IMG/VR virus record: IMGVR_UViG_3300013126_000157
Span: 1-30,087 of that record
DNA: 30,087 nucleotides
Strand: one strand, 5' to 3'
DNA from: a virus
Shown here one piece after another: positions 9,420 to 16,205 of this stretch. Positions within the stretch are counted from its first letter, which is position 1. Every line of letters begins with the position of its first letter. The notes beneath the pieces are model-generated. The model was given only the letters and a program-made list of their open reading frames with translations. It searched no databases and had not been told where the DNA came from. The translations under genes and the position numbers were made by a program.

Positions 9420-9446
9420 AAAGAGAAACCCCCTCTTTCGAGGGGG
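9420..9446 (-). terminator. Rho-independent terminator or attenuator after the tail tube gene
   Basis: On the minus strand a perfect 7-bp stem CCCCCTC/GAGGGGG with a GAAA loop spans 9446-9429 and is followed by TTTCTCTTT. It begins 8 nt after the tail tube stop codon. GC-rich stem, stable GNRA loop and U-rich tail are the hallmarks of intrinsic termination. Partial termination here would make tail tube mRNA more abundant than that of the downstream tail genes, matching the copy-number need. The U-run is interrupted by C, so read-through is likely. Confidence 0.75.
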
Positions 9447-10744: not shown

Positions 10745-11401
10745 TTACATTCTCAATGGTTTGTAAGGGCGCAATAAAACATCAACACCATACGGAATTG
10801 TCTGCATTTTTGATACAGTCGTTTCTGAACGATTGTTATAAAAATGTGTGAATAACAATTTAGCCGCAAGCTTGATATTTTCGTATTGTGACAAAATACT
10901 TGGCTGTTCAGTGTATTCAACAATCACTGGGTTAGCCACAAAGTTACTAATATCGTTTGGCAACGCATTCACAATCACTTGATTGCCAGTTGGGTCATAG
11001 TAGTATTGTGTTTTGGCAATTGTGGTCAATACTGGCGGCGTATCCATGTTGTAATACGCCACCTTATTGATTGTCATTCCACCTTGCGAAGTTTGAGGTA
11101 AATCAAGCCCAATAGGAGTGGCAACAATGCCTGTCATCCCATAATAAACGCGGTACGTTTGATTAAAAATTGGCATGCCAAGATAATCCTCAATGTACAT
11201 GCGAGTAGCTAATTCAACGCTGTAAATGTAATCATCTTGCGAATCATCACCATACAGGTTCAATTGCTCTTTTAATTCTTCCTCTGTAAGCCAGCTAGTG
11301 TTGATGTCACGCGAAATTTGCTCAATCTTTTCATAGTTGAAAGGATTGCGCGTATTTGCGAGCATCATGCCGCCATAGCCCAACGTACCATAAACGCTCA
11401 T
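10745..11401 (-). CDS. Head-tail connector protein (gp6/gp8-like)
   Basis: A 218-residue protein directly after the second capsid gene. The N-terminal part (LTEEELKEQLNLYGDDSQDD, then YIYSVELATRMYIEDYLGMP) matches the HK97 gp6-type connector helical bundle. The C-terminus (IKLAAKLLFTHFYNNRSE, then TIPYGVDVLLRPYKPLRM) is the typical helix and closing segment in which members end with a P-x-G-V-x-x-L-L-x-P-Y pattern. The protein forms the ring that attaches to the portal. It is longer than HK97 gp6 and fits the phiE125 gp8-like branch. Spacing to its neighbours is 1 base on each side. Confidence 0.8.
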   Translation of the reverse strand: MSVYGTLGYGGMMLANTRNPFNYEKIEQISRDINTSWLTEEELKEQLNLYGDDSQDDYIYSVELATRMYIEDYLGMPIFNQTYRVYYGMTGIVATPIGLDLPQTSQGGMTINKVAYYNMDTPPVLTTIAKTQYYYDPTGNQVIVNALPNDISNFVANPVIVEYTEQPSILSQYENIKLAAKLLFTHFYNNRSETTVSKMQTIPYGVDVLLRPYKPLRM

Positions 11402-11402
11402 A

Positions 11403-12425
11403 TTAAGCTCCTACTAAACGAACGCCTGCAAAAACATCACGCACTGAACTTACCACGCGCTTTTCACCATAAATTGTGGTGAAACCAGCTTGAGTTTGTT
11501 CAAACATGCTGATTTTAATTTCGCCATCATCAGCAATAGTCAAGAAGCGGTCCCAGTTAGCTAAATAAACAGAGAACGCACCTGCGGCTGGAGCTTCAAG
11601 ATATGGGTTAGGCACTACTGGGAAACCAAGCATAAATGCCACTGGACCACCATCTTCATCACCTGTTTCAAGGTAAATTGGCAAGCCGTTAGCTTTGAGC
11701 TTACGCAACGCTTGAATTGTGTCAGGATGAACGTGCCATGCTGTGCCTTGCATTGACCAGTATTGTGATGGCAATGCGTGTGCAACATTTACTAAGTCAT
11801 CATAAGCAATTGAAGCGCCAGCTTGGGTTACTGTGGCAATTGTGTGTAAGCCATTGGTAATTGCTGTGCCACTAGAGCCAAAAGCGGCTGTCGCACCACT
11901 TGGATATGATGCCAAGCCGCGTAAACCATCAGTTGCACCAGTTGAAGTTGTTGTTGAGCCAGCTTGGTCATCATTTAATGCCATTGAAGCGGCTTCGTTT
12001 TGTGAAAATTCCAAAATCAAATCTTCAACAAGCTCGTCACCAAGACCATTTACGTCTTCTAATACGGCTGTACGAACTGGGATTTGAGCTGAAACTACAC
12101 GCACTGGCAATTGCCAGTATGCGGTATCAATGTTTGGACTACCACTATTAGGGTTGACTGCATAACCCCATGGGTTAGTTGAATTAGTTGCGTTACCAGT
12201 TTTGGCAACAAAAGTCATATCTGACACACCATTAAACGCCAATTGGCGTGAGCCTTGACGGAATGGATTAGCATAACGAGCCTTTGCAAAAGCTTCGTCA
12301 TAAAACATGCGACCACCAACACCACTACCTGAACCAGTGATGCCGCTTGCCTCATTTAAGTTGATAGTAGCCTCACCATTGAGCAAGGCTTCAGCAATAC
12401 CCTTTTTGATTAAATCGTAACTCAT
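11403..12425 (-). CDS. Second HK97-fold capsid protein, lacking the delta domain
   Basis: A 340-residue protein clearly related to the major capsid protein encoded just upstream: shared blocks are TGSGSGVGGR (near residue 30), RTAVLEDVNGLGDELVEDLI, TDGLRGLASY and YGEKRVVSSVRDVFAGVR at the C-terminus. Unlike its neighbour it has only about 20 residues before the capsid fold and no coiled-coil scaffold domain. An upstream ATG at 12452 is in frame, but the Shine-Dalgarno AAAGGAAAG sits just before the ATG at 12425, so I take the shorter form. It may form pentamers, occupy particular lattice positions or decorate the shell. Expression could be set by the hairpin at 12461-12480 in its leader. Confidence 0.85.
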   Translation of the reverse strand: MSYDLIKKGIAEALLNGEATINLNEASGITGSGSGVGGRMFYDEAFAKARYANPFRQGSRQLAFNGVSDMTFVAKTGNATNSTNPWGYAVNPNSGSPNIDTAYWQLPVRVVSAQIPVRTAVLEDVNGLGDELVEDLILEFSQNEAASMALNDDQAGSTTTSTGATDGLRGLASYPSGATAAFGSSGTAITNGLHTIATVTQAGASIAYDDLVNVAHALPSQYWSMQGTAWHVHPDTIQALRKLKANGLPIYLETGDEDGGPVAFMLGFPVVPNPYLEAPAAGAFSVYLANWDRFLTIADDGEIKISMFEQTQAGFTTIYGEKRVVSSVRDVFAGVRLVGA

Positions 12426-12460
12426 ATTCTTTCCTTTTTGCCTATAACTCATGGTGAAGT

Positions 12461-12480
12461 GCAGGGGGCGAACCCCCTGC
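12461..12480 (-). other. Strong RNA hairpin between the two capsid genes
   Basis: A perfect 8-bp inverted repeat GCAGGGGG/CCCCCTGC around a TTCG loop (minus strand) lies in the 69-bp gap between the first capsid gene stop (12495) and the second capsid gene start (12425). No U-run follows, so it does not look like a normal intrinsic terminator. It could stabilise the 3' end of the first capsid message, mark a processing site, pause transcription, or tune translation of the second capsid gene. Confidence 0.7.
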
Positions 12481-12494
12481 GCTCATTCTAACAA

Positions 12495-13877
12495 TTAAGA
12501 CTTGTTAGCTGTCGCTGTAGAACGGTAGCGAACACCTGCGAATGGGTCACGAACAGAGCTTGCCAAACGTTTTTCACCAAAGAAAGTGATATAGCCGGGC
12601 AATGTTTGGTCGTAACGACGTAACACCATGCTCAAGCGGTCAACGATTGTGTGGAAACGTGACCAGTCAGCAAAGTAAGCTGGATACAAGCTAGTTGCAT
12701 CTGAACCTGTTGCTGTAACGCCTGATGGATTGTCTAGGTATTTGTTTACTACTACATCAAAACCTAATACACGACCAACAATGCCGTCATAAACCAATGG
12801 GTCCATACGTTCAAACACTGGAGTACCATTGTCGTCTGTTAAACCGCGAATTTGCGCCAAGAATGTTGGGCTGATAAGCAATTTAGCGTCAGGTGTCCAG
12901 TATTGTTGTGGCAAGCTGTAAATGAAGTTTACAACGTCTTTGTATTGAACGTTTGCCGCACCAACAACGTCGCCGTTTGTAACGATTTGGTCGTAAGTAG
13001 CCAAATCAGCAAGACCTGATGTTGCGCCTGTGCCGCTTGTACCAAACGCCGCTGTAGTTACAGAACCGCCAGCGTATGTACCTGCTTCGCCGCCGTATTG
13101 GTTAAGACCACGCAAGCCATCTGCGCCACCAGTTGAAACAGTAGTGCCGTCACCTGATTGGTCATTGTTTTGAATCATTGAAATCGCTTCTGTTTGAGCG
13201 AACTCTGCCAACATATCGTCAACAACGTTAGCTTCCAAGCCGTCAATGTCATCTAGTGCCGCTGTACGGATAGGGAACTGTGCATTCACATCTTTCAAGT
13301 TGATTTGCCAGATGTTTGTGTTTTCAGTTGTTTTCGCGCCGTTGTTTTGGATGCCATAGCCCCATTGAGCGCCAGCGTTACCAGTTTTCACGCGGAATTG
13401 GTATTGTGAGCCGTCAGTAGCCACAGTACGAGATACGCCACGCAATGGGTTAGCCAAACGTAGTGCAACGAATACTGGGTCATAAGCTGTACGACCACCT
13501 TTGTCTGTACCTGAACCTGTCAATGCAGACGCTTCAAGCGCCATCATTTTAGCTTCGCGGATATAGGCATCGTATTGGTCTTCTGACTCAAACAATTTGA
13601 TTTCTTTTTCTAATTGTTTGCCAGCTTTATGGAAGTCAGCCAATTGCTCACGAACCATGCGGTTAACGCCTTGACGAATGCTTGTTTCGCGTTTAATAAG
13701 CGCTGGAGTGCCAATTGATGCCACTTTAGCTTCAAGAGCCGCAATAGCGTCTGCACTTTCAGTTTTCGCTGTTTCGATTGAAGTAGTTACCAAGTCAAGA
13801 ATTTCTGACTTAACAGCATCTACCTTTTCTGATTGTTTTTGCTCAATCAGGTCAAGCTTTTCTAATACTTTATCCAT
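12495..13877 (-). CDS. Major capsid protein, HK97 fold with N-terminal delta domain
   Basis: A 460-residue protein following the prohead protease gene by 3 nt. Residues 1 to about 115 are charged and helical with heptad-like spacing (VLEKLDLIEQKQSEKVDAVK), the delta or scaffold domain that HK97-type proteases remove. The mature part probably begins near residue 115-120 (MMALEASALTGSGTDKGGR). The capsid fold includes LRLANPLRGVSRTV, ADGLRGLNQYGG and a conserved C-terminus FFGEKRLASSVRDPFAGVRY. It carries extra residues compared with its downstream paralog, notably around 240-275 and before the C-terminal strands. No experimental basis for covalent cross-linking can be read from the sequence. 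Confidence 0.93.
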   Translation of the reverse strand: MDKVLEKLDLIEQKQSEKVDAVKSEILDLVTTSIETAKTESADAIAALEAKVASIGTPALIKRETSIRQGVNRMVREQLADFHKAGKQLEKEIKLFESEDQYDAYIREAKMMALEASALTGSGTDKGGRTAYDPVFVALRLANPLRGVSRTVATDGSQYQFRVKTGNAGAQWGYGIQNNGAKTTENTNIWQINLKDVNAQFPIRTAALDDIDGLEANVVDDMLAEFAQTEAISMIQNNDQSGDGTTVSTGGADGLRGLNQYGGEAGTYAGGSVTTAAFGTSGTGATSGLADLATYDQIVTNGDVVGAANVQYKDVVNFIYSLPQQYWTPDAKLLISPTFLAQIRGLTDDNGTPVFERMDPLVYDGIVGRVLGFDVVVNKYLDNPSGVTATGSDATSLYPAYFADWSRFHTIVDRLSMVLRRYDQTLPGYITFFGEKRLASSVRDPFAGVRYRSTATANKS

Positions 13878-13880
13878 GAT

Positions 13881-14696
13881 TTAATCCTTTAAACGATTAT
13901 CTAAGTTTTGAAGCAATTCACGACGCTCAAGAGCGGCAAGTAAAGCTTCATCGGAAGCCACAGCGTCAGTATCACTCCGAGCTGGCTCATTTTCATTAGG
14001 CTTAATAATTGCATCACGCAATTCATTCACCTTTTTGAATACAGAAACAGCGGCTTCCGCGTTCTGTTTTGAAACCCCTGCGTCACGCAGAGCTTGTTCC
14101 AAATCTCTTGGGTCAACAGAGCCGTCATCTTTTACGCATGATTCAAGCTTGTTGATGTTTGCTTGTGGATTGTTTGGTTGCATCACAATTGATACTTCGC
14201 TCAATCCACCTTTCATAATTGAAAAATAACCTTTTTCCCAACGGTCAGGGTCACTATCAGGCAGAATTTCACCAGCTTCATCTACCAAAGCCCATTCCTC
14301 TGCATACGCGCCTACTGAAACGCCGCCGACTAGGTTAGGTGACTCTTTCATGATTGTGTAAAGGTCACGACCAGCCGTAGTGTTGGTAAACATGCGACCT
14401 GTGCCGCTCATGCCGTTTTCTGTGAACTCAAAAGCTGTCCACTCACCTACAGGCAATGACTCGTCATCATGCTGGAAATACATTGGCAATGGTTTACCAC
14501 TAGCCTCAAGCCCTTTGATAAATTCCATAAATGGTTCAGCGCGATAGAAAAAACGTCTGCCATCAGCGCCCTCACGCGGACCCCAAGTGGTAAAAGTTGC
14601 TTCAATTAAACCTGAACCCTTTGACTCGTCAAGAGTTTGCTCAAGCTTAACAATGCTTTCATTGAAAAACTTAAACTGTTCTAATTGTTTAGTCAT
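13881..14696 (-). CDS. Prohead protease (HK97 gp4 family, S78)
   Basis: A 271-residue protein upstream of the capsid genes. It carries the family's catalytic blocks: PLPMYFQHDDE with His76, NLVGGVSVGAYAEEW with Ser127, and GGLSEVSIVMQPNNPQANI at about residues 163-181, which matches the conserved strand ending in P-x-N-P-x-A. The enzyme cleaves the delta domain of the capsid protein during prohead maturation. The C-terminal 90 residues (EQALRDAGVSKQNAEAAVSV, then an acidic and Arg-rich tail) may serve scaffolding or self-processing, and make the protein longer than HK97 gp4. A GGGG-containing Shine-Dalgarno lies inside the end of the preceding 35-residue ORF. Confidence 0.93.
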   Translation of the reverse strand: MTKQLEQFKFFNESIVKLEQTLDESKGSGLIEATFTTWGPREGADGRRFFYRAEPFMEFIKGLEASGKPLPMYFQHDDESLPVGEWTAFEFTENGMSGTGRMFTNTTAGRDLYTIMKESPNLVGGVSVGAYAEEWALVDEAGEILPDSDPDRWEKGYFSIMKGGLSEVSIVMQPNNPQANINKLESCVKDDGSVDPRDLEQALRDAGVSKQNAEAAVSVFKKVNELRDAIIKPNENEPARSDTDAVASDEALLAALERRELLQNLDNRLKD

Positions 14697-14796
14697 GAAT
14701 TGGTACCCCTTTTTTCATTCCATTTGTCTTAAATGGCTGTGGCACACGATTCAACGCGGCGAGCCTTAATTTCTCTAAAAGGTCTTGTAGTGTCAT
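14689..14796 (-). CDS. 35-residue ORF bridging portal and protease genes
   Basis: ATG at 14796-14794 overlaps the portal stop codon (ATGA), and the ORF ends 8 nt inside the protease gene with TAA at 14691-14689. The product starts MTLQDLLEKLRLAALNRVPQ, an amphipathic helix, followed by PFKTNGMKKGVPIHD. Double overlap and full use of the otherwise empty 96-bp gap support a real, translationally coupled gene. It could instead be only a leader that couples portal and protease translation. I do not recognise a family. Confidence 0.5.
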   Translation of the reverse strand: MTLQDLLEKLRLAALNRVPQPFKTNGMKKGVPIHD

Positions 14797-16205
14797 GCTG
14801 AACCTCTAGCGCCTGTCTTGCCAACGGAATTGGTGTTTCCACCGCCGCCAGTGTCTTGTGGGCTAGAGCCTGCAATTTGGTCTGCTGGTTTGCCGCTATC
14901 TTTTAACTCGTCTGCGCCATCTAAATTATCAAGTCCAAGATACTCACGACCTTCGTTTGGCGTGAGTACGCCGTTTGATACGCCTGAAACCACATAATTC
15001 ATTTGGTCAAGCGGAGCGCCTTTCAAAAAGTCTTTAATATCAAATTCAATATCAAGGCTTGGGTAGCCCTCAAGCAAGTTGGCCTTAAATTTTTGTTGAA
15101 TATTGATAATTATAGGCAACATTGTTGATTTGTAAAACTCGTCAAACATTGTTTGCGTATTGTTGTACTTGCCCTCTGATACGCCAATCATTGCTGGCGG
15201 TACGCCAAACAAGCCGCAAATACGCTTCATGGTTTGCTCTTTTAGCTTGGCGGCATCAGCATCTTGCAGTGTTAGCATGTCCACAGGCATATATTTCATG
15301 CCTTGGTCTAAAAGCATTGATTGGCCCGGCTTGCTTGGGTCAGTTGCGCGGCTACCTGTCATTGAAGCCCATGCTTCTTTCAAACGCGCCGCAATTTGAG
15401 CGTAGCGAGTATCAGGGATAACTTGCTCTGTCACAAACACGCCACTTGGTTTAGCGCCGTTCAACATTACGAAGTTAGCATACACATCCAAGTCATGGTC
15501 CAATGACACTAGCTCTACAGCCAAAGTGCCTTTGTTGAATGACGCGCTACCTTGCCACGGAGCATCCATGCAATGCACTACTTGGAAATACTTGAGCGGC
15601 TCCTCTTTTGAAAAGCCATAGCTAGGTGTTGAAAGGCGATAAGTTGGATAGCGCGTTTCAGTGATTTGTGAAGTGATAAGCGTACTGTCAAGCAAGTACA
15701 TTTCAAGTGGCGTTACAGTTGAAACCTCTTTGCCACTATCACCACGCCACATAAGCGTAAAATTCTCACCAGCCAAGTCATACCACATGCAGAATTGATA
15801 CCAAAACTCATATTGGCTTTGAAATTTGTTTGGGTTTTGCAATAAACGAAGCACTTGCTTCGCTTTAAATTTTTCACGCGCTGGAACGTCAGGATGACTA
15901 ATTGCATCCCGTTTTGTGCCGTCAGCCGCTACAGAAGTGATTTTGATAGGTAATTGAGCCAATGCTCGCGCTTTTACGCCAATACATGACATGACTGTGC
16001 TGTTTCGTGACAGCATTGACATATCAATAATGCGACCAGCCTCGTTTTGTGCTGACGTTGTAACGTATAAAAGTTGCGCAGAAGCTACGCTTTGAGGTGA
16101 ATTGGCATTGCGTAGAACATTGTTACCTAACGAAGTTTGTCCAAAAAGTGTATTAGACTCTTTGTTTACTGGCGTTTTTCTTTTGAATGCGTCAAATAAG
16201 CCCAT
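14793..16205 (-). CDS. Portal protein (HK97 family)
   Basis: A 470-residue protein between large terminase and protease. The N-terminus MGLFDAFKRKTP, the block STVMSCIGVKARALAQLPIK at about residues 69-88, the segment FQSQYEFWYQFCMWYDLAGE, and the C-terminal-third motif RICGLFGVPPAMIGVSEG with NTQTMFDEFYKSTMLPII are characteristic of HK97 gp3-type portals (Phage_portal, PF04860). It forms the dodecameric ring through which DNA is packaged and to which the connector binds. The last 40 residues are glycine-, serine- and asparagine-rich (GGGGNTNSVGKTGARGSA) and probably disordered. The stop codon overlaps the start of the 35-residue ORF. Confidence 0.95.
   Translation of the reverse strand: MGLFDAFKRKTPVNKESNTLFGQTSLGNNVLRNANSPQSVASAQLLYVTTSAQNEAGRIIDMSMLSRNSTVMSCIGVKARALAQLPIKITSVAADGTKRDAISHPDVPAREKFKAKQVLRLLQNPNKFQSQYEFWYQFCMWYDLAGENFTLMWRGDSGKEVSTVTPLEMYLLDSTLITSQITETRYPTYRLSTPSYGFSKEEPLKYFQVVHCMDAPWQGSASFNKGTLAVELVSLDHDLDVYANFVMLNGAKPSGVFVTEQVIPDTRYAQIAARLKEAWASMTGSRATDPSKPGQSMLLDQGMKYMPVDMLTLQDADAAKLKEQTMKRICGLFGVPPAMIGVSEGKYNNTQTMFDEFYKSTMLPIIINIQQKFKANLLEGYPSLDIEFDIKDFLKGAPLDQMNYVVSGVSNGVLTPNEGREYLGLDNLDGADELKDSGKPADQIAGSSPQDTGGGGNTNSVGKTGARGSA

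Follow-up and report, generated by a model that had tools for sequence, protein, structure and literature searches.

Two tandem HK97-fold capsid paralogs separated by a conserved hairpin in a group of aquatic phages: a possible division of labour between hexamers and pentamers

The virus record IMGVR_UViG_3300013126_000157 (30,087 bases, analysed over its whole length and here called the window) encodes two homologous capsid proteins in tandem, MCP1 and MCP2, which are both predicted to have the HK97 fold. An earlier note had recognised this pair in the window; the observation is confirmed and extends to a whole phage group. In this group the two genes occur together in every locus with room for both, they are most simply traced back to a single duplication, both are under purifying selection, their N-termini are asymmetric and a hairpin lies between them at every junction. 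With slightly better than even confidence we favour the reading that MCP2 is specialised as a minor capsid protein, most likely located at the non-portal five-fold vertices, and that MCP1 forms the hexamers. The interpretation given in the earlier note, according to which the second protein could form pentamers or occupy special lattice sites or give a mosaic shell, is thus partly supported.

The genes concerned lie on the minus strand, in the order terminase small subunit, terminase large subunit, portal protein (14793-16205; PF04860, E 2e-56), prohead protease of the Peptidase_S78 type (13881-14696; PF04586, E 6e-7; phrog_80, head maturation protease), MCP1 (12495-13877, 460 aa), MCP2 (11403-12425, about 340 aa) and head-tail adaptor (10745-11401; phrog_40 and phrog_442), which directly follows MCP2. 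Further 3' on the same strand are two small genes, the major tail protein and more tail genes with a tape measure. The S78 protease presumably trims MCP1, perhaps MCP2 also. The longest open reading frame of MCP2 comprises 349 codons (11403-12452). Its likely start was placed at the ATG at 12425, which gives a protein of 340 aa, because the ribosome-binding-like sequence AAAAAGGA lies upstream of this codon and the residues downstream of it are conserved in relatives.

Both proteins match the Pfam family PF05065 (Phage_capsid) above the gathering score (MCP1, E 8e-24; MCP2, E 5e-20), and an alignment of the two spans 349 columns with 41% identity (E 5e-69). Thus the shared motif blocks from which two tandem HK97-fold paralogs had been deduced in the window reflect real homology. 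A phmmer search of the capsid sequences against the PDB yielded weak matches; therefore folds were compared instead. AlphaFold models, built from alignments of relatives, reached a mean pLDDT of 79 for MCP2 and 71 for MCP1, and in both the confidence is low at the N-arm and at the tip of the E-loop. The best solved-structure match of both models was 6tb9, the gene transfer agent of Rhodobacter capsulatus (E 1e-16 for MCP2 and 5e-17 for MCP1). HK97 capsid structures ranked close behind, and 1ohg and 2gp1 were among the fold matches. The predicted fold of MCP2 is complete, with E-loop and A-domain. Judging by these models, MCP1 and MCP2 would both have the HK97 fold.

At their N-termini the two proteins are unequal. 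MCP1 begins with a delta-like domain (approximately residues 1-117), which ends at the putative cleavage region EASALTGSG and is modelled over residues 1-117 as long helices (2-54, 67-84 and 99-116), as a delta domain should be. The helical scaffold region that the earlier note had assigned to MCP1 only is therefore found again in the predicted structure, ahead of the junction. MCP2 had been described as starting directly at the mature fold. This has to be corrected: ahead of the sequence EASGITGSG it has a conserved N-terminal extension of some 28 residues (about 27 from the likely start in the window; 28 in 61 of 83 relatives). The EAS-TGSG junction is common to both proteins, and the region in front of it has a median length of 106 residues in the MCP1 relatives (117 in the window, 100-117 in the group) versus 28 in MCP2.

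When the two classes were compared segment by segment, the N-arm around the presumed cleavage site proved most alike (in 8 of its 19 columns the conservation is shared, and none is class-specific), and the A-loop least, with 0 of 20 columns conserved in common. MCP2 has the shorter A-domain loops. The borders of these segments were taken from DSSP of the predicted model; their roles are presumably those known from HK97. The A-loop of HK97-type capsids sits near the capsomer axis, and A-loops are generally variable. Since the N-arm is shared and the A-loop is not, the pattern would fit a protein adapted to another rotational axis.

Among 50,697 phage records, close homologs were found only in Methylophilaceae phage P19250A, which carries both genes in the same order (60% identity for MCP1 and 59% for MCP2); its MCP2 homolog P19250A_0006 is annotated as hypothetical. 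The next relatives of MCP1 are capsid proteins with 22-24% identity from phages that have one such gene at that place. In IMG/VR, relatives of MCP1 are encoded in 587 stretches. MCP2 follows MCP1 in all 93 fetched capsid-baited IMG/VR loci whose contig runs past MCP1. Because sampling with a capsid bait risks circularity, the portal protein was used as a second bait, and again the pair was present in all loci with room for it (47/47). The other portal-baited loci either stop just past MCP1 (18) or lack a capsid ORF, their contig ending no more than about 1 kb from the portal gene (13). Five contigs from prokaryote metagenome bins carry the pair too. The phages with the pair are a large group of mostly uncultured aquatic viruses.

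Some loci show peculiarities. A contig of this phage group (L101, JAHEYD010000010.1) was assigned to a MAG that bears the name of an archaeon, Candidatus Nitrosotalea; mis-binning is the most likely cause. The contig IMGVR_UViG_3300022748_000017 (75,987 bases) contains two MCP1-MCP2 pairs that differ from each other and lie about 40 kb apart (L023 and L072); it resembles two joined related phage genomes and is perhaps an assembly product. In two loci an ORF of about 190-210 codons lies between MCP1 and MCP2, past the hairpin (L033:5669-6242 and L054:5895-6536), which we take to encode a GIY-YIG-like free-standing endonuclease. In one locus MCP2 is interrupted by one in-frame TAG, possibly a sequencing error (L053:6550-7533); this was the sole such case seen.

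A maximum-likelihood tree was calculated from 55 mature-region sequences, unrooted and with no outgroup. MCP1 and MCP2 are split by a long branch with a support of 100/100, and this split was present in 200 of 200 bootstrap trees. Rooting by Rhizobium phage RHph_X2_25 and Azospirillum phage Cd was dropped, as both are too distant (22-24% identity, with a long-branch warning); therefore only the unrooted split was used. The earlier note had named a phylogeny of both paralogs as a check on the age of the duplication. The simplest reading of the tree is a single old duplication, common to the sampled group and predating its radiation, with no pair lost and no later gene conversion. Gene conversion between the copies can indeed be discarded, since MCP1 and MCP2 never intermix across the bootstrap trees. 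A recent duplication or an assembly artefact is likewise out, given the age of the split and the presence of the pair in all adequate loci.

The dN/dS ratio is about 0.12-0.14 for MCP1 and MCP2 alike (321 genome pairs), and the distance matrices of the two genes are correlated (Mantel r 0.71, p 0.001). MCP2 is thus kept as strictly as MCP1, though it is more divergent. That MCP2 is a decaying copy can be dismissed because of the equal dN/dS and the complete predicted fold. Between the loci L041 and L043, MCP1 differs by 1.3% and MCP2 by 32%, so that MCP2 was exchanged by recombination. Such a swap of MCP2 next to a near-constant MCP1 argues against very tight co-adaptation of the two proteins.

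The main new evidence, overlooked in the earlier note, is the hairpin between the two genes. A strong GC-rich hairpin is present 3' of MCP1 in all 107 distinct MCP1-MCP2 junctions, whereas the same scored rule finds one after ten other structural genes of those genomes in 0-19%. A T-rich tract follows the hairpin behind MCP1 in 72 of the 107 junctions, compared with at most 5% after the ten other genes. Under a more stringent rule for stems, 68 of 91 junctions qualify, versus 2.9% of dinucleotide-preserving shuffles. In the 23 junctions that fail, a hairpin is evident too, but its loop is longer, its stem is shorter or it contains a mismatch; as the stricter rule misses these, the scored rule, identical for all genes, was used for the count of 107. 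Relatives have 44 different 5' arms with pairing retained, and when arms were swapped between genomes only 68% of the inner seven positions paired, a figure to be read with the reservation that the stems had been chosen for pairing, which biases towards structure. The gap between MCP1 and MCP2 has a median of 62 bases.

In the window the hairpin lies at 12461-12480 on the minus strand, between the MCP1 stop and the MCP2 start (GCAGGGGG-TTCG-CCCCCTGC), and the stem is followed by ACTTCACC, a poor T-tract. For this reason it was not among the terminators listed by a pattern scan of the window. Since an Rfam search of the window gave no match, a known RNA element at this place was rejected. A terminator-like hairpin also lies 3' of the major tail protein gene of the window (9429-9446, minus strand; CCCCCTC-GAAA-GAGGGGG followed by TTTCTCTTTC); among distinct relatives, 15 of 95 have a hairpin after this gene. 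Considering the sequences of the whole group, the MCP1 hairpin most likely acts as a terminator or an attenuator. In the window genome it is possibly a 3'-end stabiliser, and terminator action there is uncertain. Either function would predict more MCP1 than MCP2. With the hairpin between the genes, MCP2 is probably a minor component that is produced by attenuated read-through.

These observations can be brought together as follows. MCP2 would have arisen when the capsid gene was duplicated in tandem, once and long ago. Procapsid assembly would be driven by the delta or scaffold domain of MCP1, and MCP1, by its abundance, would make up most of the lattice. MCP2, which has no scaffold domain apart from the short conserved N-terminal peptide, would co-assemble on the MCP1 procapsid, and the S78 protease would probably trim both proteins at the shared EAS-TGSG junction. 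Many transcripts would end or weaken at the hairpin past MCP1, leaving read-through to supply MCP2 in lower quantity. In the case of a T=7 capsid, about 55 copies of MCP2 would stand against 360 of MCP1. If fewer copies of MCP2 are required, a hairpin 3' of MCP1 in all junctions is what one would expect. The role similar to T4 gp23/gp24 that the earlier note had proposed is thus favoured by the hairpin found everywhere, the propeptide asymmetry, the equal purifying selection and the A-loop without shared conservation; the placement at the vertices is what we infer from these. The poor T-tract of the hairpin in the window counts against it. Terminators 3' of a major capsid gene can also serve other ends, for example Tphi of T7 after gene 10, so MCP2 may simply have the same dose as the connector genes. 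Moreover, the same data are compatible with any minor lattice role.

Several other interpretations have to be considered. It is rather unlikely, in our view, that the hairpin is unrelated to MCP2 and acts as an end signal or 3' stabiliser of the abundant capsid mRNA, MCP2 being made at normal levels otherwise. The similar hairpin with a T-rich tail 3' of the major tail protein gene and the poor T-tract behind the MCP1 hairpin of the window would agree with this. However, of 95 genomes no more than 15 have a hairpin after the major tail protein gene, whereas the MCP1 hairpin precedes MCP2 in all junctions, and a median gap of 62 bases leaves scant room for a separate promoter. A mosaic shell, in which MCP1 and MCP2 are mixed within capsomers and their expression ratio tunes capsid size or stability, we regard as improbable. 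Two HK97-fold paralogs can build mixed shells of variable composition, as the encapsulin of Streptomyces lydicus does (PMC12407261), and the retained identity of 41%, the common N-arm and the exchange of MCP2 between close relatives would suit such a mixture. But the hairpin at every junction predicts unequal amounts, and an A-loop without any position conserved in both classes speaks against mixing round one axis. Of what the earlier note had proposed in this respect, the duplication and the one-sided delta domain stand, and a mosaic shell with comparable amounts is weakened by the hairpin.

MCP2 might also occupy a special lattice site away from the ordinary vertices, e.g. a capsomer ring round the portal, and assist in initiating assembly or in holding the portal. 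Its gene is directly upstream of that of the head-tail adaptor and is on the low-expression side of the hairpin, which would suit a very low copy number. Yet the complete predicted fold of MCP2 includes both the E-loop and the A-domain that a regular lattice subunit requires, and that we know of no HK97-type phage with a separate HK97-fold protein round the portal also counts against such a site, so that this role seems very doubtful. It is hardly probable, finally, that MCP2 is located outside the regular virion lattice, as an assembly chaperone, a transient size-control factor or a protein of alternative particles. The missing scaffold domain and the annotation of the P19250A homolog as hypothetical could be seen in this light, but the whole protein is under purifying selection equal to that on MCP1, its predicted fold is that of HK97, and it retains the putative maturation junction, for which a protein that stays outside the procapsid would have no use.

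A central question of capsid assembly is how a single HK97-fold protein can make hexamers as well as pentamers; the standard exception is T4. If MCP2 is a vertex protein, the phages described here would be a second, independent case of a division of labour between hexamers and pentamers, in a small delta-domain phage with an HK97-type capsid. Paralogs with 41% identity and about 100 natural variants of the pair would then allow a direct test of which residues determine whether a subunit is placed at a five-fold or a six-fold position. It would also give a likely role to the 'hypothetical protein' adjoining the capsid gene in a phage group that is frequent in aquatic metagenomes, together with a simple and testable model in which the capsid stoichiometry is set by a hairpin between two genes. 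That a widespread delta-domain clade with genomes of about 39 kb independently evolved a penton protein by duplication, dosed by a conserved attenuator hairpin, is a proposition which we put forward tentatively, with a little less than even confidence.

Among known systems, HK97 gp5 and the Rhodobacter capsulatus gene transfer agent resemble the phages with the pair in the fold, the order portal-protease-capsid, the S78 protease and the N-terminal delta-like domain, which here belongs to MCP1; they differ in having one capsid protein at all positions instead of two. Methylophilaceae phage P19250A (KX815270) has the same gene order and shows no difference in kind, and Venkman has been reported as syntenic with it (PMC8163748). 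In the matched passages of the Venkman and MEP301 papers the pair is not described; the original description of P19250A may hold an earlier mention. Literature searches for phages with two HK97-fold capsid paralogs brought up T4, CcrColossus and the two-component encapsulin. The family 2B encapsulin of Streptomyces lydicus likewise has two HK97-fold shell proteins, which form mixed shells (PMC12407261), but it is a cellular nanocompartment without portal, protease and delta domain. In the Caulobacter siphophage CcrColossus, gene 36 likewise encodes a diverged paralog of the major capsid protein. It is, however, about 21 kb away from the capsid gene and is described as a duplication that distinguishes Colossus from phiCbK (PMC3556154); it is no universal tandem pair.

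T4 gp23 and gp24 also are two HK97-fold paralogs in one phage with a long N-terminal region on the major one; their cleaved N-terminal regions comprise 65 and 10 residues, respectively (PMC9958956). Some of the mutations that let gp23 replace gp24 map to the A domain, at subunit interfaces within the capsomer, and in other well-studied phages the major protein itself occupies the vertices, according to the same T4 review (PMC9958956). Unlike gp23 and gp24, which are about 20% identical, MCP1 and MCP2 share 41% identity, and they occur in a genome type of about 39 kb, with a fused delta domain and a conserved hairpin between the genes. Membership of the T4 capsid family was rejected, as Pfam and PHROG searches with MCP1 and MCP2 matched PF05065 and phrog_10, phrog_15928 and phrog_267 but no T4 capsid family. 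By analogy MCP2 may work like gp24, yet it stands outside the gp23/gp24 family, because MCP1 and MCP2 are members of PF05065, each being the nearest relative of the other. This suggests that the arrangement of MCP1 and MCP2 is independent in origin from that of T4 gp23 and gp24.
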